From Caldicellulosiruptor bescii DSM 6725 (GTDB taxonomy: Bacteria > Bacillota > Thermoanaerobacteria > Caldicellulosiruptorales > Caldicellulosiruptoraceae): a stretch of DNA of 64,000 nucleotides. This document shows positions 17,846-51,657 of the stretch, piece after piece; position 1 is the stretch's first letter, and the number at the start of each line of letters is the position of its first letter. A model generated the notes under the pieces. That model had not been told where the DNA came from. It saw nothing but the letters and a program-made list of their open reading frames with translations, and did no database searches. Both the position numbers and the translations under genes were made by a program. The stretch lies in contig NC_012034.1 of the NCBI RefSeq assembly GCF_000022325.1, forward strand, positions 1,072,501 through 1,136,500, in the 5' to 3' direction.

Positions 17846-17908
17846 TTAATTGAAGCAGTTTTTTTATAATTTAATTTTAACTTATTCAACACAAAGGAGG
17901 TGCAAAAG

Positions 17909-19465
17909 ATTAGTGAGACATTGAAGTTTGTAATTATTGGAGCAATTGTTTTGGTAGCATCAATGGTTGCCTTTTTCTTGGGCTATTTATATAGAAAGAA
18001 GATTGCAGAAAAGACCATAAAAAGTGCTGAACAAGAAGCCCAAAGAATTGTTGAGGAGGCCAAAAAACAGGCCGAGGCATACAAAAAGGAGGCAACACTC
18101 CTTGCAAAAGAAGAGATACACAGAGCAAGGAGCGAATTTGACAGAGAGGTAAGAGAACGAAGAGCAGAGCTCCAGAGGTTCGAAAGAAGACTTATCCAAA
18201 AAGAAGAGATGCTTGACAAAAAGATGGCGTCTGTAGAGGAAAAAGAAGAGCAGCTCAATCAGAAGCTGAAAGATATTCAAAAACTTCAAGAGGAGATTGA
18301 ACTTTTAAAACAAAAAGAGCAGGAAGAGCTGCAAAGAATTTCTGGGCTCACTCAGGAAGAAGCAAAACAAATTATACTCAAGAGTGTTGAACAAGATGTC
18401 AAACATGACGTTGCGCTCATGATAAAAGAGCTTGAACAGCAAGCAAAAGAAGAGGCTGACAAAAAAGCCAGAGAAATTATTGCTACTGCTATCCAACGCT
18501 ATTCGTCAGACTATGTTGCAGAAAACACTGTTTCTGTTGTGACACTCCCAAATGATGAAATGAAAGGTAGAATCATAGGTAGAGAAGGAAGAAACATAAA
18601 GACATTTGAGACTGTCACAGGAATAGACCTTATAATTGACGACACACCCGAGGCAGTAATATTATCAGGGTTTGACCCGATAAGGCGTGAGATAGCAAAA
18701 TTGACGCTTGAAAAGCTCATTTTAGATGGGCGAATACATCCTGCGCGAATTGAAGAAATGTACGAAAAAGCAAAACGAGAGGTTGAGAATAAGATTCGAG
18801 AAGAAGGAGAAAGGGTTGTATTTGAGCTTGGGATTCACAACTTGCATCCAGAACTCATTAAGCTCATAGGAAAACTTAAGTACAGAACAAGCTACGGTCA
18901 AAATGTTCTTGCACATTCTATTGAGGTAGCAAACATAGCAGGTATCATGGCAGCAGAGCTCGGTCTTGACCAGAGCATTGCAAAGCGTGCAGGTCTTTTG
19001 CATGACATTGGCAAAGCAGTTGACCATGAAATGGAAGGGTCACATGCCCTGATTGGTTATGAGCTTGCTAAAAAATACAAGGAGACAAACCCGGATGTCC
19101 TTGAAGCGATTGGTGGGCATCACGGTGAGATGGAAACAAGGTCAATTTACAATGTGTTAATTCAGGCTGCTGACTCTGTTTCAGCGGCACGACCAGGAGC
19201 TCGAAGAGAATCTCTTGAGTCTTATATCAAAAGACTTCAGAAACTTGAAGAGATTGCGAATTCTTTTGATGGTGTTGAAAAGGCTTATGCAATTCAAGCA
19301 GGAAGAGAGATAAGAATAATGGTAAAGCCTGACCATGTGAGTGATGATGATATTGTTATAATGGCAAGAGAGATAGTAAAGAGAATTGAAAGTGAGCTTG
19401 ATTATCCAGGTCAGATAAAGGTAAATGTAATCAGAGAAGTTCGAGCAGTTGAATATGCAAAATGA
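17909..19465 (+). CDS. rny: Ribonuclease Y
   Basis: About 519 residues. An N-terminal transmembrane helix ([22 protein letters not shown]) is followed by a long coiled coil (about 30-200), a KH domain ([17 protein letters not shown]) and an HD domain with [12 protein letters not shown], giving the RNase Y order. It is the membrane-anchored endonuclease that initiates mRNA decay in Firmicutes. The start is unusual. The SD AAAGGAGGT spans 17893-17901; the only upstream standard start, GTG 17900, lies inside it, and the next, TTG 17921, is 20 bases beyond GGAGG. ATT at 17909 has correct spacing (8 bases), so I annotate from there. Confidence 0.93.
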
Positions 19466-39532: not shown

Positions 39533-39577
39533 TGGAGCTCCATGGGGGATTCGAACCCCCGACCGGTCGATTACGAA
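39533..39577 (-). repeat. attL: displaced 3' fragment of tRNA-Thr(CGT)
   Basis: 45 bases identical to 51583-51627, covering CCA end, acceptor 3' strand, T arm, variable loop, and anticodon 3' stem plus part of the loop. After base 39577 the sequence diverges from tRNA. It is the left island boundary. Confidence 0.92.
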
Positions 39578-39729: not shown

Positions 39730-40146
39730 TTAGTTGCGGTTGTAGTCATTTATTCCTAATTTTTCTTTTAGTGCTTCTTGAAGCACTTGAGAAAAATTTA
39801 TGTTGTTCTTTTCTGCTAAGATATTTAACCACTGAGGAATTGTCAAAGTCTTTTTTACTGCTTTATTGTCCATCTCATGCCGAACAAGTGGCATCCATAC
39901 TTCAATCAACATTGGTATTTGATTTTGTTCAAGTTTTAAGTTGTTCACAGGTGTTGGCTCTGGTATTGGTTCATTGTCTTTTTCCATGCTCCAAAGATAC
40001 AGCCCTAATACTTCTTTTGCATTTTTCACTGCTTCATCCAAAGTATCAGCACATGAAATACAACCGGGCAGGTCGGGAAATTCAATTGTTATACCGTCAT
40101 CATCAAAAGTAAAAATAGCTGGAAAGACATAAATATCTCTATTCAT
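39730..40146 (-). CDS. hicB: HicB-type antitoxin
   Basis: About 138 residues from the ATG at 40146. The partial RNase H-like HicB fold is clear: YVFPAIFTFDDDGITIEFPDLPGCISCADTLDEAVKNAKEVLGLYL. The C-terminal part (TLTIPQWLNILAEKNNINFSQVLQEALKEKLGI) looks like the DNA-binding/dimerisation region of HicB proteins. It lies 7 bases after hicA in the same transcript. It would neutralise HicA and repress the operon at the repeats upstream of hicA. Confidence 0.92.
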   Translation of the reverse strand: MNRDIYVFPAIFTFDDDGITIEFPDLPGCISCADTLDEAVKNAKEVLGLYLWSMEKDNEPIPEPTPVNNLKLEQNQIPMLIEVWMPLVRHEMDNKAVKKTLTIPQWLNILAEKNNINFSQVLQEALKEKLGINDYNRN

Positions 40147-40153
40147 TTCTTTT

Positions 40154-40363
40154 TCACTCCCCAATATCTTCAATTTTAATTCCAGCTTGTTGTAAAATAC
40201 TTTTAACTGTTCTAATTGGCAAATTCTTTTTGGGATGAGGGACAGTAACTTTTCCTTTTTTGACAGGATGTTTAAATTGATAGTGGTCTCCTCTAACTGC
40301 CTCTAAATACCATCCGTCAGCCATTAGAATTTTTATTATCTCTCGTGAAGAATAAGCTTTCAT
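40154..40363 (-). CDS. hicA: HicA-type mRNA interferase toxin
   Basis: 69 residues, a small double-stranded-RNA-binding-like fold: SSREIIKILMADGWYLEAVRGDHYQFKHPVKKGKVTVPHPKKNLPIRTVKSILQQAGI. The His in GDHYQF is in the catalytic position of the family. HicA cleaves mRNA; HicB blocks it. The pair probably stabilises the island. An SD (AAAGGATGAG) precedes the ATG, and the promoter carries a tandem operator. Confidence 0.93.
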   Translation of the reverse strand: MKAYSSREIIKILMADGWYLEAVRGDHYQFKHPVKKGKVTVPHPKKNLPIRTVKSILQQAGIKIEDIGE

Positions 40364-41366: not shown

Positions 41367-42299
41367 CTATCCAGTTATCTTTTTCATGACTCTTTTTAAT
41401 TGTTCTCTGTACTTGCTTCCATACTTTTGTACCATCGAAAGATGTGAAAGACAAAATACAAAGTAATCTTTAAGAAGTCTTACATTGTAGACTGTGAGAT
41501 TATCCCAGTTACGTTCTATAAACTCTTCTACTTCCCACTTGGCAGCAAGAAGTTTCATCCTGTCCTGTTCGCCTTGTTGCTTTAAAACCCTCAGCTTGTC
41601 CAATTGTGGTATTGCAGACAAAACCTCAAGCTGTTTTCTTTTCTCTTCTCTATCAATAACAGTTGCCTCAACTGGTGAATAGCCAAAATTACTACCACTT
41701 GCTATGTGCACAGCTGGGCAGGATATAAACACTGTCAAGTCGTCAAGGTCTGCCTCAAACTGTTCTTGTCTCATCTTGGCTATTATCTTTCTTCTTGCTT
41801 TTTTGAACACCTTATCACTGGCAGGTAAATTCTTTCCTGTGGAGATGTAATATAAGACTCTTTCTTTTTCCTCTTCGGTTAAGATGGCAAAATACCTATG
41901 TAGCTTTTGGACTGTGTCTTTCCTAATCACTTCGCTTTCGACTGAATAACCATCTGAGATTATATCTGCAACTGTAGATGTATCTTCTTCGGGTTCTTTT
42001 GATATCGGACTGTCCAAAGAGATGGCACAAGATAACTTGTATTTTGGCAAGCTTCTTTTTATCTTGCTCTCAATCACCTTGCAAGCATAGGTTGAAAAAC
42101 TGCCTTTGGCAGGGTCATAGTTCTTTGCTGCAACAACAAGTCCAATGTACCCTTCACTGACAAGGTCATCAACTTCATAGTAATAGCCCTTTGGACATGG
42201 CATAAATTTATTTGCAACATGATACACAAGCTTCAGGTTGTCGACAATTAAAAGCTGGCTTTGTACCTTGGCAAACTGTCTTGTTTCTGACTGCTGCAT
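41367..42299 (-). CDS. Sigma-70 region 2-containing protein (island-encoded sigma-like factor)
   Basis: 310 residues. Residues about 18-85 form sigma region 2: DNLKLVYHVANKFMPCPKGYYYEVDDLVSEGYIGLVVAAKNYDPAKGSFSTYACKVIESKIKRSL, in line with the core-binding and -10-recognition helices. A normal region 4 is not obvious; the C-terminal 200 residues are helical and unfamiliar. It may direct island transcription, like late or activator sigma-like proteins of phages. It is in the leftward block, 30 bases after the terminase-like gene. Confidence 0.8.
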   Translation of the reverse strand: MQQSETRQFAKVQSQLLIVDNLKLVYHVANKFMPCPKGYYYEVDDLVSEGYIGLVVAAKNYDPAKGSFSTYACKVIESKIKRSLPKYKLSCAISLDSPISKEPEEDTSTVADIISDGYSVESEVIRKDTVQKLHRYFAILTEEEKERVLYYISTGKNLPASDKVFKKARRKIIAKMRQEQFEADLDDLTVFISCPAVHIASGSNFGYSPVEATVIDREEKRKQLEVLSAIPQLDKLRVLKQQGEQDRMKLLAAKWEVEEFIERNWDNLTVYNVRLLKDYFVFCLSHLSMVQKYGSKYREQLKRVMKKITG

Positions 42300-42329: not shown

Positions 42330-42812
42330 TTAGTTTAAAACAGAAGGCTCATCTGGTTCATGAAGTGCTTTGATAAGTTCTCTAATACTGTCTTCAATCT
42401 GCGGTTGATTTGAGTTTTTCTCATCAAGTCCAAGAGCAAGTCTCTGTCCTTTTTGCACCTTCTCAACCACCAAAGCCAGCTTTTCAAGTGCATAAATGTT
42501 TATTCTGCCATCCTTGGTTTTGATGTTTTTCTCATCATGCAAAGCCTGCCACACCAAGTCAAGAAGCCTGTCCCAAAACTCAACATGCAAAGTATTGTAG
42601 TCGCTTGCTTTTTCTATTTGTTTTTGCAATGTCTTTTCAACCACAAGCTGACTCTTGGTTTTGCTAAGTTGTCTTTTCTCCTGAGTCCAGCCTTTTGCTT
42701 TGTTTCTCAAAAATCCATAGCTTATATTTTTAGCCTGTGCAAACTCTTTGAGAGTCTTGAAATCTCCAAGCATAAACTCACGTTTTAAACTTTCCCAGTC
42801 ATAGTATGGCAT
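42330..42812 (-). CDS. Terminase small subunit-like protein
   Basis: 160 residues. The N-terminal MPYYDWESLKREFMLGDFKTLKEFAQAKNISYGFLRNKAKGWTQEKRQ has the helix-turn-helix layout of phage small terminases (YDW...I-K-x-E-Y ... TL-x-E-L-A ... G-I-S-Y), followed by a helical oligomerisation-like region. TerS recognises pac sites and recruits the large subunit. No large terminase exists here, so in a satellite it would redirect a helper phage's packaging motor. Assignment is by motif resemblance; another HTH phage protein is possible. Confidence 0.6.
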   Translation of the reverse strand: MPYYDWESLKREFMLGDFKTLKEFAQAKNISYGFLRNKAKGWTQEKRQLSKTKSQLVVEKTLQKQIEKASDYNTLHVEFWDRLLDLVWQALHDEKNIKTKDGRINIYALEKLALVVEKVQKGQRLALGLDEKNSNQPQIEDSIRELIKALHEPDEPSVLN

Positions 42813-44751: not shown

Positions 44752-45399
44752 TTAAATTTGTGCCATAGTCTGAATGCTGATTTCTTCTTGTTTTTTAGCT
44801 GTCCTGTAGAGAGGATAAAGCTCATAGATATATTCATTCGTAAGAGGCTGGGTATAACTTATAACTTGAATAGCAATGTCGCTTTGAGGAAAGCAATTTT
44901 TACAGACAAAAGCGCCTATTGCCTCAAAATATGCAAGTTCTTTACTACCGCATACATTACAATTGAAATCTGTGAAAGCTTCTTTTGCTTTTTCAATCTC
45001 AATTGGTTTTTTGCTTTTTATGACAAAAGCTTTTTGTCCTACTGGTGCTCTCTTTTTCGTAAACTCTGTATCTAAAACCTTGCTGCCTTTCTTAGGTTCT
45101 GTTTTGTTTAGCTTTGCCTCACTGTCCATGTCAAAAAAGCTGATAGAGATACTTTCTCTGAGATTTTTAATTGCTTTTTTAACCTTATCCTTGTCCAAGA
45201 ATATAAGGGCTGTTTCAATGTCTTTTAATTGCTCCTCTGTTGCATATTTCTTATACTCTCCAATCTCCTGCCAAATTTCTTCACAAAGCTGTGTATATTG
45301 AGCTTTTAGCTCTGGATTGCTTTCTATCAATCTTTTTGCACGTTCTAAAGCTTGCTGGTCTCCAAGCTTATAATACTTTTGTTTTAGGGTAGGGAACAT
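44752..45399 (-). CDS. Island zinc-ribbon protein, 215 residues
   Basis: From ATG 45399 (SD GAGGTGAT). The N-terminal 90 residues are helical (KYYKLGDQQALERAKRLIESNPELKAQYTQLCEEIWQEIGEYKKY). At about 145-165 a zinc ribbon CNVCGSKELAYFEAIGAFVCKNC is plain (C-x2-C ... C-x2-C). It may bind nucleic acid. First gene on the leftward side of the putative origin. The family is not recognised. Confidence 0.72.
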   Translation of the reverse strand: MFPTLKQKYYKLGDQQALERAKRLIESNPELKAQYTQLCEEIWQEIGEYKKYATEEQLKDIETALIFLDKDKVKKAIKNLRESISISFFDMDSEAKLNKTEPKKGSKVLDTEFTKKRAPVGQKAFVIKSKKPIEIEKAKEAFTDFNCNVCGSKELAYFEAIGAFVCKNCFPQSDIAIQVISYTQPLTNEYIYELYPLYRTAKKQEEISIQTMAQI

Positions 45400-45498
45400 T
45401 TTAATCACCTCACAGTTTAAACATGTTATTACCAGCGGAATTGGAATTATTTCCAATTAATTACCCTCAAATTTGATTTTGAAGGGTGGTTTTTAGAA

Positions 45499-45829
45499 GG
45501 TAACCAGTAGTACTGGTTACCTTTTTAAAATTTAAAACCATTGTAAATTCCTATGTGCACATTTTTGTGCTCGGGTAACCAGTAAATTTTAAATACATAT
45601 ATACTTTTTTATATTTTTGAGGGTAAAATTTTTCCAATGGTAATTACCAAATATTTCCCCTCAATTTTTATTTTTTATAAAGTATTATTATTTTTACTGG
45701 TTACTCTGGTTACTGGGGGTATATAAAAGCTTATATTATCTGCTTTTTAATAGGTAACCAGTAAGGTAACCAAGGTAACCAGTGAGTCCACTAAAGCTTT
45801 GAGAATGCTTGAAAAGTCTACTGGTTACC
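45499..45829. other. Putative replication origin of the island (nine iterons around an AT-rich core)
   Basis: The decamer GGTAACCAGT or its complement ACTGGTTACC occurs at 45499(+), 45512(-), 45574(+), 45753(+), 45774(+) and 45820(-) exactly, and with one or two changes at 45696(-), 45705(-) and 45765(+). The first pair makes a near-perfect palindrome. Between the two clusters, 45584-45695 is almost purely A/T. The region begins 25 bases from the primase-helicase stop codon, as SaPI origins sit beside rep. The gap 45,400-45,854 contains no plausible gene. Confidence 0.78.
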
Positions 45830-45854: not shown

Positions 45855-48383
45855 CTATATAACTTTGCTTTCTTCTTGAGAAGGAAGTTTAATCTCCACA
45901 ATCCTAAAAACTTTTCCTGCCTTTTTCTTAAGAACAGAGTACCTTTTGCAATCTTTTTCATAGGTAACTTTAATCAAACCTTTTTCTTCCCATGCAGCGT
46001 AAACTTTTTTCGGATTGAAATTCATTTCTCGCAAAAGTTTTTCCAACACACTTGGGAAAAATTCTACAACGCCATCTTGCAAAAACCCCCACCGCTCCTT
46101 GGCTTCTTCTTCAAAGTTTTTTATATGGGCATTTATCATGTCCAAAATATAGTCATAAGCTCGCTGCCCAATGTCTACTTCCTCTACCCCTTGAAGTTGT
46201 TCAGCTATAGCTGATATAACAATTTCTGTTATAGGTTCTGGATGTTTTTCACCAAAGATTAATTTTGATGTAGTCATATCAACTGCACCCACCAATGCTA
46301 AAGCCATTGCGTGACTTTGAAGAATTTTAGGATATTTTTTAAGGATTGTGTCAAATAAACTTTGTGATGTAGTTTTGATTTTTTGGATAATGTTTTTATT
46401 CTGCTGAATGGTTTTTATCCACTCTCTGCCAGCCCAACCATAGTTGCTTTGGATTACCTCATAGCAAGCCCTTGCCTGTTCTTCATTGTCGAAAGGTTTA
46501 AGATTTATCTCTATTGTTCTGGTAAATACACCCTCATTTGAAGTTGTGCTGCTCAGAGGTTCTTCACCTGTTGATAAGATAACAGTGTGCCAAGTACTGA
46601 GTGGTTGTAATCCACCACCTTTTGATCCTCTGAGCTTGCCTTTACCCAGTGACAGCATATATACAAGGTTTTCTATAAATTCTTGGTTATTTGCGACTTG
46701 TCGCTCATCAATGCCGATAGGTAGGTCATTATAAAAATTTGCAATTTTCTCAAGACCAACTTTAGTGGCATTGAATGTTACAACAAGGTCGTCTGGATTA
46801 CCCCAAATTGACAGGGCAGCCTTGAGTGTTGCGGTTTTCCCAGAACGACTATCTCCCCATAGGTGAATAAGGAATATTCGTTGATTCAATAACCTCAAAA
46901 GAGGTGCTGTAAAAGACGCAGCCATTAGAAATCTAAAGGCTTCGTTATAGCGAAATTCTTTCATTCCTTGCTGCCAAGCTTGGAATGTTCCAGCTGGTAT
47001 TAAGCCTTCAAATAGAGCATCACTTTGAACAACAATAATGTTTGGTTCATAGGGAATAAACATTTCTTTATACCAACCAAGCTTTTTACTCATAAGTAGA
47101 GTAGGTAGTTCTTTAAGATTTGCACTTTCAAAATCATACAGATACTGAACTAATAGCTTTGCATTATTTGAGTTGACAAGAATACCATAGTTAGCAAGTT
47201 CTAAAATCTCGCGTGTGCTTACTATTACTCCTTTATCAATTACAATAGAGTTTTTCAAATTATTTGTAAGATAAACAAGTTCAACTTTTTCAAGGTTTGT
47301 TTCAATTTCTTTTAATTTTTTACTAATGATAACTGGAGTTTTAGTAACCTCAATAGTAGTAATTTCTTCAGTCTTCTTTGATACATTTTCTTTCAAAATC
47401 CCTTCTGGTGTGATATAATACCCCTGTGGAGTATTATATTTGAAATCCACACCAAAGAGATTTTTATTTTGTTTTTCAATATTTATTGGCTTTGCATTTT
47501 CTATAATGCTGTTTATTTCTTCAACAAATCTTTCGTGATTACTGTTGTGGTGGATGTGTATTTCGGACACATCCTTAAATTTATCGCTTTGCAGTATAAA
47601 GCAAGGTTTATCAAAACCAGTTTCACCTGCAAGTCTTATAAACCTTTCTATAAAAGTTGTCCCACCCCTGTCTGGTTCCTGCCAAATATATACTTTTTCA
47701 AACTTCTCTAAGTGTTTAAAATCTTCACATCTTAAATTGCTGGCTCCAGCAATACCCAAAGCTTGATATCCATGATACCAAAGGGTTTGGGTATCACTCT
47801 CACCTTCAACAAGTATAATGTAATCCTTATTGAATTCGCTTAGTCGCCAGAGTCCATATGGAACAACCCGCGCACCTTGAACCCAAGCGAACCTTTTTTT
47901 GCTACTTGGATAATACCTTTTCCTGATTCCTGCTGTGTTCCCTTGATCGTCCTTGTAATATATGCTTACATATCTTTTGTTGTAATCTTCTTGTTTCATT
48001 TCACATATTTTTGTCAAAAATTCGATTGGTAGTTTCTTTTCTTTGCTGTAATCATCTAAAGTATATTTCATTAATTTCTCCTTCTTCTCGTCATCTTTTA
48101 ATAATCCTGCTTCCTTGAGTAAAATTTTATAAGCTTCTTTCCTGCTTATTTTTTCTATTCTTTCTAAAAACGTGATAGCGTTGCCATTGCCACAACCTGC
48201 CTCACATTTCCAACAGCCATTTTGGATTCGGAACCAGAAGCTGTTGTGCTGGTCATCATGAAAAGGACACTGAGCGCTTATTTTATCAGTGCCAGTCTTT
48301 TTCATGTTGGAGAGGTATCGACTATAAAACTTCTCATAATCTATATATTTATCTAAATCTACGTTCTTGTATTGTTTTGTCAT
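45855..48383 (-). CDS. Island primase-helicase (CHC2 zinc finger, TOPRIM, DUF927-type ATPase)
   Basis: 842 residues. A CHC2-type zinc finger (CPFHDDQHNSFWF...CWKCEAGCG, about 39-66) is followed by a TOPRIM region (VEGESD about 191-196; WQEPDRGG). A DUF927-like ATPase follows, with Walker A GDSRSGKT (about 509-516) and Walker B LPIGIDE (about 550-556). A C-terminal winged-helix-like tail ends it. It would prime and unwind at the adjacent iteron origin. ATG 48383 has an AAAAGGAGG SD. Pri-Rep-type enzymes of this kind are typical for satellites and some prophages. Confidence 0.9.
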   Translation of the reverse strand: MTKQYKNVDLDKYIDYEKFYSRYLSNMKKTGTDKISAQCPFHDDQHNSFWFRIQNGCWKCEAGCGNGNAITFLERIEKISRKEAYKILLKEAGLLKDDEKKEKLMKYTLDDYSKEKKLPIEFLTKICEMKQEDYNKRYVSIYYKDDQGNTAGIRKRYYPSSKKRFAWVQGARVVPYGLWRLSEFNKDYIILVEGESDTQTLWYHGYQALGIAGASNLRCEDFKHLEKFEKVYIWQEPDRGGTTFIERFIRLAGETGFDKPCFILQSDKFKDVSEIHIHHNSNHERFVEEINSIIENAKPINIEKQNKNLFGVDFKYNTPQGYYITPEGILKENVSKKTEEITTIEVTKTPVIISKKLKEIETNLEKVELVYLTNNLKNSIVIDKGVIVSTREILELANYGILVNSNNAKLLVQYLYDFESANLKELPTLLMSKKLGWYKEMFIPYEPNIIVVQSDALFEGLIPAGTFQAWQQGMKEFRYNEAFRFLMAASFTAPLLRLLNQRIFLIHLWGDSRSGKTATLKAALSIWGNPDDLVVTFNATKVGLEKIANFYNDLPIGIDERQVANNQEFIENLVYMLSLGKGKLRGSKGGGLQPLSTWHTVILSTGEEPLSSTTSNEGVFTRTIEINLKPFDNEEQARACYEVIQSNYGWAGREWIKTIQQNKNIIQKIKTTSQSLFDTILKKYPKILQSHAMALALVGAVDMTTSKLIFGEKHPEPITEIVISAIAEQLQGVEEVDIGQRAYDYILDMINAHIKNFEEEAKERWGFLQDGVVEFFPSVLEKLLREMNFNPKKVYAAWEEKGLIKVTYEKDCKRYSVLKKKAGKVFRIVEIKLPSQEESKVI

Positions 48384-48482: not shown

Positions 48483-48701
48483 TTATTTATTCTGGCAAGC
48501 CTGTTCATTGACCCAGCGAATAAAAGCTTCTTTGGGTATAAGGATTCGTCGCTGCCCAGCTAAGATTTTGGGGAAGTCTTTTCTGTGGACTAAAGTGAGC
48601 ATTACGTTATAGCTTATGCCAAGCATTTGGGCAGCTTCCTTAATGCTTATGGTGAGTTTTTCTATTTTGTCTCTTTGAGGTTGGGGATTGTAGATTTCCA
48701 T
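48483..48701 (-). CDS. Excisionase-like HTH protein (Xis/AlpA type)
   Basis: 72 residues. LTISIKEAAQMLGISYNVMLTLVHRKDFPKILAGQRRILIPKEAFIRWVNEQ is the standard MerR-like excisionase DNA-binding domain, with helix-turn-helix and wing. It is the first gene of the leftward block, opposite the repressor, with SD AAAGGAGGT. It may help excision or activate island genes. Confidence 0.88.
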   Translation of the reverse strand: MEIYNPQPQRDKIEKLTISIKEAAQMLGISYNVMLTLVHRKDFPKILAGQRRILIPKEAFIRWVNEQACQNK

Positions 48702-48718: not shown

Positions 48719-48808
48719 ATGTTTCGTTATAAAACAAAATAATGTTTCATTCTTCATCTAAATTAATTATAATGTTTCAAATAATATTTGTCAATAAAAA
48801 TGTTTCAT
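48719..48808. promoter_or_regulatory. Divergent control region with four ATGTTTC operator-like repeats
   Basis: ATGTTTCGT (48719-48727), ATGTTTCAT (48742-48750), ATGTTTCAA (48772-48780) and ATGTTTCAT (48800-48808), all in the same direction, lie between the excisionase-like gene and the repressor. A TATAAT at 48826-48831 may serve the repressor. Probable binding sites for the CI-type protein. Confidence 0.65.
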
Positions 48809-48864
48809 TTTTGCTTATAGAGTGTTATAATGTATTAAAAAGAAGCATAATAGAGGTGATTGAT

Positions 48865-49707
48865 TTGATAGAAGAAAATATTTTTGCTATGCGATTAAAA
48901 GAGTTACGTGAAGAAGCAAATTTAACTCAAAATGAATTAGCAGAAAAGCTTGGTATAGGAAGGGCTACCTTGAGTAATTATGAACTTGGTGTGAGAAAAC
49001 CAGATATTGATACATTACAAAAAATAGCAAATTATTTTAATGTATCAAGTGATTATCTTCTTGGTATGACACCAATAAAAAAGAGAGATTCTTTAAACTC
49101 GATAGAAGAAATAATCAAAGAAAAGAAAGTAAAAGAATTAAAAAACTTTTTTAAACATGAAGAAAACGTCAAAGCTTATTTTGAATATATTGTTTCATTG
49201 TTTGAGCCATTGCTAAAGGCAATTTCTATCTATGAAGATGAAAAAATTATTGTCGATAGTTATCAAAAAGTAAAAGCAAATTTTTTTGACCTTTTTATGC
49301 CTATTCTGGATATGCTAAAAACTTTATTGAAGATTTCTTATATGAAAAGTTTTCCTTTTATACTTGACACATACGTATTTGAAGATGCACTTTCTTATTT
49401 AAAAGACAAAAAATTAAAATATTTCATTTTTGATATTCCCACATTAATTAATGAGACACATAAAATAGTAAAATTATTTGTAGAAGAATTGAGCAAAAAA
49501 TCAAAAGCAATATCTGACAACAGCTATTCACTATATAACTTTTTCTATGAGAACCTCACAGAACTACAACAAAAGCTTTTGGCAACTACAATTTGGCTTT
49601 ATGAATATGATGTTGGTTTGCATTCAGAATTAGATGAATTAAAAAATCTTTTTTTAAAAAATAAAAATTCTAAAGAAGGTGAATCCAATGGAAGCCAGAA
49701 TACCTAA
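48865..49707 (+). CDS. Cro/CI family repressor of the island
   Basis: About 280 residues. HTH_3 domain at about 10-65: MRLKELREEANLTQNELAEKLGIGRATLSNYELGVRKPDIDTLQKIANYFNVSSDYLLG. The 210-residue C-terminal part is helical and lacks the Ser/Lys peptidase signature of LexA/CI self-cleaving repressors. That fits derepression by a protein partner, as with SaPI Stl, rather than by RecA. TTG 48865 is chosen because GAGGTG ends 6 bases upstream; the frame is open further upstream but through the operator region. Confidence 0.85.
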   Translation: MIEENIFAMRLKELREEANLTQNELAEKLGIGRATLSNYELGVRKPDIDTLQKIANYFNVSSDYLLGMTPIKKRDSLNSIEEIIKEKKVKELKNFFKHEENVKAYFEYIVSLFEPLLKAISIYEDEKIIVDSYQKVKANFFDLFMPILDMLKTLLKISYMKSFPFILDTYVFEDALSYLKDKKLKYFIFDIPTLINETHKIVKLFVEELSKKSKAISDNSYSLYNFFYENLTELQQKLLATTIWLYEYDVGLHSELDELKNLFLKNKNSKEGESNGSQNT

Positions 49708-50269
49708 ACTTTACACCTATGCAGACTATCTTCAGCTGCCACAAGACGCAAGGGTAGAGCTTATTGACGGTATCATTTATGATATGAGTCCTGCACCTTC
49801 AAGAGTGCACCAAGAAATTGTAATAGAGCTTGCAACATTGATAAAGAATTATCTCAAATCTTCTAATAAGCCCTGCAAAGTTTATACAGCCCCCTTTGAT
49901 GTAGTTCTAATAGAGGAAGGGCAGGATGAGAAGCAAGCAACTAACGTTGTTCAGCCTGATATATCAATCATATGCGACAAGAAAAAGCTAACTGAAAAAG
50001 GCTGTGTTGGAGTTCCTGAGATGATAATTGAGGTTGTGTCACAAAATAATCCTGCACATGATTATATTCGAAAACTTAATCTTTACACTCAATTTGGAGT
50101 CAAAGAATATTGGATTGTTAATCCATATGAACAAAACATTTTTGTGTATGTATATCGTCCAGAGACTGGATATTCATATCCAAAAGTCTACACTTTTAAT
50201 GACAAAATAAAAGTTTCTCTTTTTGAAGACCTTATGATAGACTTTGCGCAAATCAAAGAGGTGTTATAA
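49688..50269 (+). CDS. Uma2 family (DUF820) putative endonuclease
   Basis: About 193 residues. VELIDGIIYDMSPAPSRVHQEI, VVQPDISII and PEMIIEVVSQNNPAHDYIRKLNLYTQFGVKEYWIVNP give the Uma2 PD-(D/E)xK arrangement (Asp in PDI; Glu in IIEV). Activity is rarely shown for the family. It lies between repressor and integrase, overlapping the repressor end by 20 bases, so it is cotranscribed with both. A defence or accessory role is possible. Uma2 genes also occur outside mobile elements. Confidence 0.88.
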   Translation: MEARIPKLYTYADYLQLPQDARVELIDGIIYDMSPAPSRVHQEIVIELATLIKNYLKSSNKPCKVYTAPFDVVLIEEGQDEKQATNVVQPDISIICDKKKLTEKGCVGVPEMIIEVVSQNNPAHDYIRKLNLYTQFGVKEYWIVNPYEQNIFVYVYRPETGYSYPKVYTFNDKIKVSLFEDLMIDFAQIKEVL

Positions 50270-50270
50270 A

Positions 50271-51473
50271 ATGCCTACCAAAACAAAAAAGAGAGGGAAT
50301 AATGAAGGCAGCATATACAAAAGAAAAGATGGGCTCTGGTGCGGTCAAATCACCATAGGAAGAGATGAAAACGGCAGACAAAAGCGGCAGTATTTCTATG
50401 GCAAGACAAGACAAGAGGTTGCTGAAAAGATAGCAAAGACACTAAATGACTTAGCCAATGGAGTATATGTTGACCCTGCAAAGACAACGTTGAAAGATTG
50501 GCTTAACACATGGCTTTGGGAATATAAAAAGCAGACATTGCGACCTTCAACGTTCAAAGATTATTTGTGCTATATAGAAAGACATATAAATCCTGCCATT
50601 GGTCATTATAAGTTAAAAGATTTGAGACCTGAACATCTTCAAGCTTTGTATAATGCCAAATATCAAGAAGGTTTGAGTATAAGTACAATTAAGCAGATTC
50701 ATACTGTTTTGCATTCAGCTTTAGACCAAGCTTTAAAGAATGGACTTGTCAACAGAAATGTTTCAGAGGCAACCACTTTACCAAAAGGCAAGCCAAAAAG
50801 AGAGATAAGGATACTAAGTTTAGAAGAACAACAAAGATTTATTGCAGCTTTGGAAGGGGAAAGATTAAAAACTGCGTTTCTTGTTGAGTTAGCAAGTGGA
50901 CTTAGAATTGGTGAACTTTTAGCTTTGCGCTGGAAAGATGTCAATTTCAAGGATGGATACATTGAAGTTAGACGGTCTTTACAGCGTGTAAGGATTTTTG
51001 ATGGAGGCAATTCTAAAAAGACTGCACTTGCTTTTCAAGAACCTAAAACAGAAGCAGGTAAAAGAATAGTGCCTTTGCCACCAGTAATAATTGAAGAGTT
51101 AAAACAGCACAGAAAAAAACAGTTAGAAGAAAAACTGAAAGCTGGAGCGCTTTATGAAGATAACGATTTAGTATTTGCAACAGAGCTTGGTACCCCAATT
51201 GACCCAAGAAATTTTGAAAGGCTTTTTTACAGAATTAGAGAAAAAGCGGGACTTGACAAGAGTGTCAATTTTCATGCATTAAGACACACATATGCAACAA
51301 GGCTTTTAGAAGCAAATGAACATCCCAAAGTTGTTCAAGAGCTTTTAGGACACAAAGATATTTCTACAACCCTCAATATTTATTCTCATGTTATGCCTGA
51401 GATAAAGAAAGCTGCTGCAATGAAATTAAACAGTTTATTTGAGAATATAAAAACAAAGGGTAACCACTCCTAA
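50271..51473 (+). CDS. int: Tyrosine integrase of the island
   Basis: 400 residues. N-terminal AP2-like arm-binding domain (GSIYKRKDGLWCGQITIGRDENGRQKRQYFYGKT), SAM-like core-binding domain (about 65-150), and catalytic domain with R212 (GLRIGELLALRW), H335-x2-R338 (HALRHTYATR), H361 (LLGHKD) and nucleophile Y371 (LNIYSHV). It would recombine the 45-bp att sites. ATG 50271 follows GAGGTG. It ends 110 bases from the right att core, the usual position. Confidence 0.96.
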   Translation: MPTKTKKRGNNEGSIYKRKDGLWCGQITIGRDENGRQKRQYFYGKTRQEVAEKIAKTLNDLANGVYVDPAKTTLKDWLNTWLWEYKKQTLRPSTFKDYLCYIERHINPAIGHYKLKDLRPEHLQALYNAKYQEGLSISTIKQIHTVLHSALDQALKNGLVNRNVSEATTLPKGKPKREIRILSLEEQQRFIAALEGERLKTAFLVELASGLRIGELLALRWKDVNFKDGYIEVRRSLQRVRIFDGGNSKKTALAFQEPKTEAGKRIVPLPPVIIEELKQHRKKQLEEKLKAGALYEDNDLVFATELGTPIDPRNFERLFYRIREKAGLDKSVNFHALRHTYATRLLEANEHPKVVQELLGHKDISTTLNIYSHVMPEIKKAAAMKLNSLFENIKTKGNHS

Positions 51474-51582: not shown

Positions 51583-51627
51583 TGGAGCTCCATGGGGGAT
51601 TCGAACCCCCGACCGGTCGATTACGAA
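51583..51627 (-). repeat. attR: island right boundary within tRNA-Thr
   Basis: Identical to 39533-39577 over 45 bases; divergence begins at 51628 within the anticodon stem (5' side). Crossover therefore occurred between the anticodon loop and the CCA end. Confidence 0.92.
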
Positions 51628-51657
51628 TCGACTGCTCTGCCACTGAGCTAATGGAGC
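51583..51657 (-). tRNA. tRNA-Thr (anticodon CGT)
   Basis: On the minus strand the cloverleaf reads: acceptor GCTCCAT/ATGGAGC, D stem GCTC/GAGC, anticodon stem GTCGA/TCGAC with loop TTCGTAA, T stem GGGGG/CCCCC with loop TTCGAAT, and encoded CCA. The anticodon CGT reads ACG (Thr). The 3' 45 bases are shared with the left island end, so the island rebuilt the gene. Confidence 0.95.

Follow-up and report, generated by a model that had tools for sequence, protein, structure and literature searches.

The region at positions 45499 to 45829 of the 64,000-nucleotide stretch of the Caldicellulosiruptor bescii chromosome analyzed here (the window) is very probably the replication origin of an integrated, PICI-like phage satellite of about 12 kb, used by the satellite's Rep protein through iteron binding, melting of an AT-rich core, helicase loading, and priming. 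Comparison of about 100 relatives further suggests that one Rep amino acid dictates the last bases of its iteron. For the whole SaPIbov1-Rep/Cch superfamily, we consider it rather likely that one residue near the wing tip of the DNA-binding domain (K820 in the window) reads the last base of each iteron in a four-letter code (R for A, K for C, W for G, and S for T), with W and Y also turning the preceding base to G.

The putative origin, to which no strand is assigned, consists of nine iterons in two sets flanking an AT-rich core. Six match the decamer exactly, one carries one mismatch, and two carry two mismatches, all within 331 bp. On one side lie iteron 1 (45499 to 45508, plus strand, GGTAACCAGT), iteron 2 (45512 to 45521, minus), and iteron 3 (45574 to 45583, plus), each exact; the other set comprises iterons 4 (45696 to 45705, minus, one mismatch), 5 (45705 to 45714, minus, two mismatches), 6 (45753 to 45762, plus, exact), 7 (45765 to 45774, plus, two mismatches), 8 (45774 to 45783, plus, exact), and 9 (45820 to 45829, minus, exact). 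Iterons 1 and 2 form a palindrome, GGTAACCAGT-AGT-ACTGGTTACC (45499 to 45521). The core between the sets (45584 to 45695; 112 bp, 16% G+C) is presumed to be the unwinding element and occupies the same place in relatives. The first-pass annotation, made from the sequence alone, had described nine sites (six exact, three near) in two clusters with a palindromic first pair, and both the sites and their coordinates were correct; it had also called some 110 bases between them almost pure A/T, which captures the AT-rich core but slightly overstates its composition. The array begins about 25 bp beyond the stop codon (at 45855) of the minus-strand rep gene, and so stands directly after the primase-helicase gene as that annotation had it, the placement 3′ of the initiator gene that is expected of a PICI. 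It had further predicted that the decamer would be concentrated here rather than common elsewhere in the chromosome. Across the whole genome (2,931,662 bp), the exact decamer occurs seven times, six of them within the 331-bp array; a reversed-pattern control occurs twice. With up to one mismatch allowed, the 64-kb window holds 10 matches versus 1.9 expected, 7 of which are inside the array. A non-iteron block within the core (TTTTGAGGGTAAAATTTTTCCAATGGTAATTACC, 45615 to 45648) is conserved across the genus, well in all four elements known there and least in the G002 remnant described below. In the window it is accompanied by an inverted TTACCCTCAAA copy at 45461 to 45471, and the block is possibly a second protein site.

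Other functions were considered for the repeats. The perfect 10-bp inverted pair at 45499 to 45521, 3′ of rep, could be read as marking the end of the gene with a terminator, an attenuator, or a structured RNA. We regard this as extremely improbable: the terminator scan returned 0 matches, tRNA was the only Rfam family detected, and the repeats occur in both orientations across 331 bp around an AT-rich core that belongs to a conserved plan. The array is also intergenic, upstream of an open reading frame at 44752 to 45456, and DNA-binding regulators are encoded close by, so the repeats might instead be operators at which the Stl-like repressor (48742 to 49707) or the HTH_17 protein (48483 to 48701) controls the operon downstream of rep. 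This too is very unlikely: phages and a plasmid with other neighbors carry the same array 3′ of rep, the bases of the iteron vary together with a wing residue of Rep itself, and scanning the region for promoters revealed none on the minus strand. On the promoter, terminator, and Rfam results, neither a terminator nor an operator-only function is favored. A combined role is a less remote prospect, though still a doubtful one, in which the region is an origin and an operator at once: when occupying the iterons closest to the gene downstream, Rep would also repress that gene or gauge copy number, much as happens in iteron plasmids. The stretch from the core to that gene does contain iterons 1 to 3, with the palindromic pair 43 bp ahead of the listed start of the open reading frame; however, the promoter scan recognized no promoter there.

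The rep product (45855 to 48383, minus strand) is homologous to SaPIbov1 Rep and Cch in both sequence and fold. It combines a CHC2 zinc ribbon and DnaG-like primase, its N terminus matching DnaG primases, with a DUF927 helicase (200.6 bits versus a curated cutoff of 22.6) and, at its C-terminal end (residues 737 to 835), an HTH_56 (Cch) winged helix (70.5 versus 26.2 bits). Among solved chains, it is closest to SaPIbov1 Rep (8tch; phmmer E value of 1e-28, Foldseek E value of 2e-25) and Cch (5dgk). In the AlphaFold model (mean pLDDT of 85.7), the domain has a helix at 777 to 786, a recognition helix at 791 to 800, and wing strands at 817 to 821 and 824 to 832, the former containing K820. The suggestion that the iterons serve a new Rep family was therefore not borne out: the protein belongs to the SaPIbov1-Rep/Cch family, and its fusion to a DnaG-type primase has precedent in known phages.

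The element around rep is bounded by 45-bp direct repeats (39533 to 39577 and 51583 to 51627) identical to the 3′ end of a tRNA-Thr (CGT) gene (51583 to 51657, minus), the integration site, and spans about 12.05 kb, as expected of PICI attachment sites. Its gene order is that of Gram-positive PICIs as described previously (PMC6092414). A tyrosine integrase (50244 to 51473, plus) and a divergent HTH_3 repressor in the Stl/Rpr position (48742 to 49707, plus) lie on one side; on the other are a small HTH_17 protein in an Xis/AlpA-like position (48483 to 48701, minus), the primase-rep gene, the origin, accessory genes, and a probable small terminase subunit (42330 to 42812, minus), the last assigned on a moderate match (PHROG 1206, E value of 2e-6). 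No virion structural or lysis genes were detected among the element proteins scanned against Pfam, PHROGs, and NCBIfam, several small proteins having no match. The element also encodes a HicA/HicB toxin-antitoxin pair just inside its far end (39730 to 40363, minus), a putative Uma2-family endonuclease between repressor and integrase (49679 to 50269, plus), and a sigma-70 region 2 protein (41367 to 42299, minus), which is unusual for a PICI.

The Cch winged helix, SaPIbov1 Rep as the closest structure, and the PICI gene order together support a SaPI-type origin, and the SaPI-like plan adjoining rep that had been noted earlier gains from both the Rep homology and the gene order. SaPI Rep uses its C-terminal domain to recognize an iteron origin that lies immediately downstream of rep (PMC7581432); E. 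coli PICI origins reportedly always have two iteron sets around an AT-rich region, an organization identical to that of Gram-positive PICIs (PMC6092414). By analogy with this SaPI work, once the element is excised, Rep would bind the nine iterons through its winged helix and assemble in two groups, one on each side of the core. These groups would melt the core and load as an MCM-like helicase, and Rep would then prime replication at the origin with its own DnaG-type domain.

Like the window, SaPIbov1 has a homologous DUF927 helicase with a C-terminal DNA-binding domain, and its origin, directly 3′ of rep, is described as an AT-rich core with a set of iterons on either side (Ubeda et al. 2007, as cited in PMC7581432). 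The SaPIbov1 Rep differs in being only about 19% identical over the helicase half and in that the window Rep has a fused primase; iteron sequence and host differ as well. SCCmec Cch (5dgk, NF047345) shares DUF927, HTH_56, and the fold, but the window Rep scores far under the equivalog cutoff (86.5 versus 700 bits) and its gene sits in a tyrosine-integrase element with phage-satellite genes rather than in an SCC. The fused architecture recurs in the primase-helicases of Thermoanaerobacterium phage THSA-485A and Faecalibacterium phage FP_Epona (41% and 33% identity to the window Rep, respectively), which, unlike the window satellite, are full phages. Our analysis found iteron arrays directly 3′ of both genes (TCGGTTACC and AGGTGAAACA, respectively); origin or repeat annotation is absent from the two records.

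The 3′ array is a recurrent feature of this family. In IMG/VR, 67 loci offered both a complete relative and sufficient flanking sequence. In 49 of them, the best 8-mer in the 450 bp 3′ of rep occurred at least five times, whereas upstream of rep none of 65 reached even four copies; among control windows, 15 of 2,801 held at least five copies, some being displaced arrays of the same loci. In about one-quarter of homologues, the 450 bp 3′ of rep lack a strong array; some of these homologues have an array farther downstream (up to about 2.4 kb). Iteron-like arrays about 2.1 to 2.5 kb 3′ of rep, not adjoining it, were seen at L177, L184, and L185. Besides the two phages, SaPIpT1028, read directly, has 3′ iterons (TAGTTCCCG) and, as in the window, a K as its wing residue; AC844P2 and a Eubacterium callanderi plasmid have weaker arrays. 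The layout is conserved among relatives, each element having its own iteron; in a recurrent arrangement, one inverted iteron, three direct, and two inverted precede an AT-rich stretch of about 80 to 112 bp, which is followed by one or two direct iterons, one inverted, and one direct. Class- and order-level genome searches for additional HTH_56 members yielded no new loci, a single-protein scan of genome contigs gave no match, and a reverse search of viral contigs from iteron pairs to genes reached an HTH_56 gene at only two loci, both already known. The six contigs viewed that carry ACTGGTTACC pairs at a regular 15-base period resemble a repeated coding sequence (AATCAGGTAACCAGT, NQVTS by eye); a decamer pair alone is thus not diagnostic.

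In the first set of loci, residue X of the wing motif K-X-F (K820 in the window) went together with the final two bases of the iteron: CA for R, CC for K, GG for W, and GA for Y. This rule was set as a prediction before a second clade, the helicase-only relatives, was fetched, and iteron frames were aligned by a program blind to the proteins, some helicase-only loci being nearly symmetric. In the second clade, R and K obeyed the rule at 15 of 18 loci, or at 11 of 14 once relatives more than 80% identical were removed (P = 0.004; a modest test within this clade alone). S with CT first appeared in this clade; the S-to-T and G-to-A rules were first noticed there and so are not independent tests, the predeclared part being R and K. 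Among additional loci, previously unused, five W loci all end in GG and one, L146, ends in CA; two more W loci, L381 and L396, have variant repeats with mostly G at position 10, as does L144 of the first set. Overall, the last base follows position 820 (A with R, C with K, G with W, and T with S), and the rule fits 68 of 72 called loci, compared with 40 in the best of 20,000 permutations. The exceptions are L146 (W with CA), L167 (R with CG), and L293 and L352 (K with CT); a further exception, L351 (R with CC), is ambiguous in orientation.

Relatives share both traits, and the tree offers few supported independent pairs, so residue 820 might simply mark clades that happen to carry certain iterons. 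Shared ancestry alone is nevertheless an unlikely account of the association. Among pairs with 60 to 75% domain identity, the last base was shared in 108 of 109 with the same residue but in 12 of 126 with different residues. In a scan of about 200 columns, residue 820 was the top column for iteron position 10 (phi of 0.87; the next, a neighboring column, reached 0.47) and also for position 9 (0.65). The scan found no single residue for iteron position 3, 4, 6, or 7. On a tree built from the helicase only, with the winged helix left out, nearly all residue and base changes coincide, the minima being at least 17 residue changes, at least 18 base changes, and at least 20 changes of the combination. 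R versus other residues gave nine supported independent pairs, of which a mean of 7.3 changed in the same direction and none in the opposite one (median P = 0.016); other single-residue contrasts had too few supported pairs for significance.

The covariation strengthens the earlier proposal that the iteron may define Rep specificity. We infer direct contact between K820 and the final bases of the iteron, and specificity would then comprise the wing residue for the iteron 3′ end together with further residues elsewhere. In geminiviruses, iterons likewise vary from one relative to another, in step with a few residues of Rep; the parallel is conceptual, as that Rep is an unrelated rolling-circle protein with a different DNA-binding fold. 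The origin itself is a further SaPI/PICI-type origin, a kind already known, and adds a PICI-like replicon from a genus for which we found none described. The residue-to-base rule turns the general statement that the Rep C terminus recognizes iterons into one testable across phages, satellites, and a plasmid. Our search of the open-access literature found no report of it, and an earlier description is possible in subscription papers, including the original SaPI origin studies, which were outside its scope. If the rule is true, sequence would be enough to predict origin specificity and compatibility groups, metagenomic satellite origins could be matched to their initiators, and orthogonal Rep/origin pairs could be identified; evolution would swap one residue along with all iterons of an origin.

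Homologous elements were found in three further species of the genus, two with Reps 62 to 64% identical to that of the window (G007 and G003) and one with a broken rep (G002). All four share iteron positions (the same alignment columns), yet the iterons themselves differ: ACTGGTTACC in the window, ACTGGTTAGG in G002, AGTGGTTACA in G003, and AGGTGTTACA in G007. Nine sites were recognized in the window and G007, eight in G003, and seven in G002. The G003 and G007 elements are about 95 to 97% identical on either side of the helicase/winged-helix part of rep and the origin, compared with about 70% in that part of rep and 82% in the origin spacers. Because divergence is confined to the 3′ half of rep and the origin, these may form a single cassette that has been exchanged as a unit between elements. 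DNA similarity also covers the sigma-70 region 2 gene in both elements. The G002 copy (L034, G002:C1:1160000-1178000) is a decayed element at the same tRNA-Thr site, its rep broken by stops and frameshifts; array and wing are still matched (W, with an iteron ending in GG). Near the G003 element (L033), a second integrase-region-like stretch at 17855 to 18461 suggests a neighboring element.
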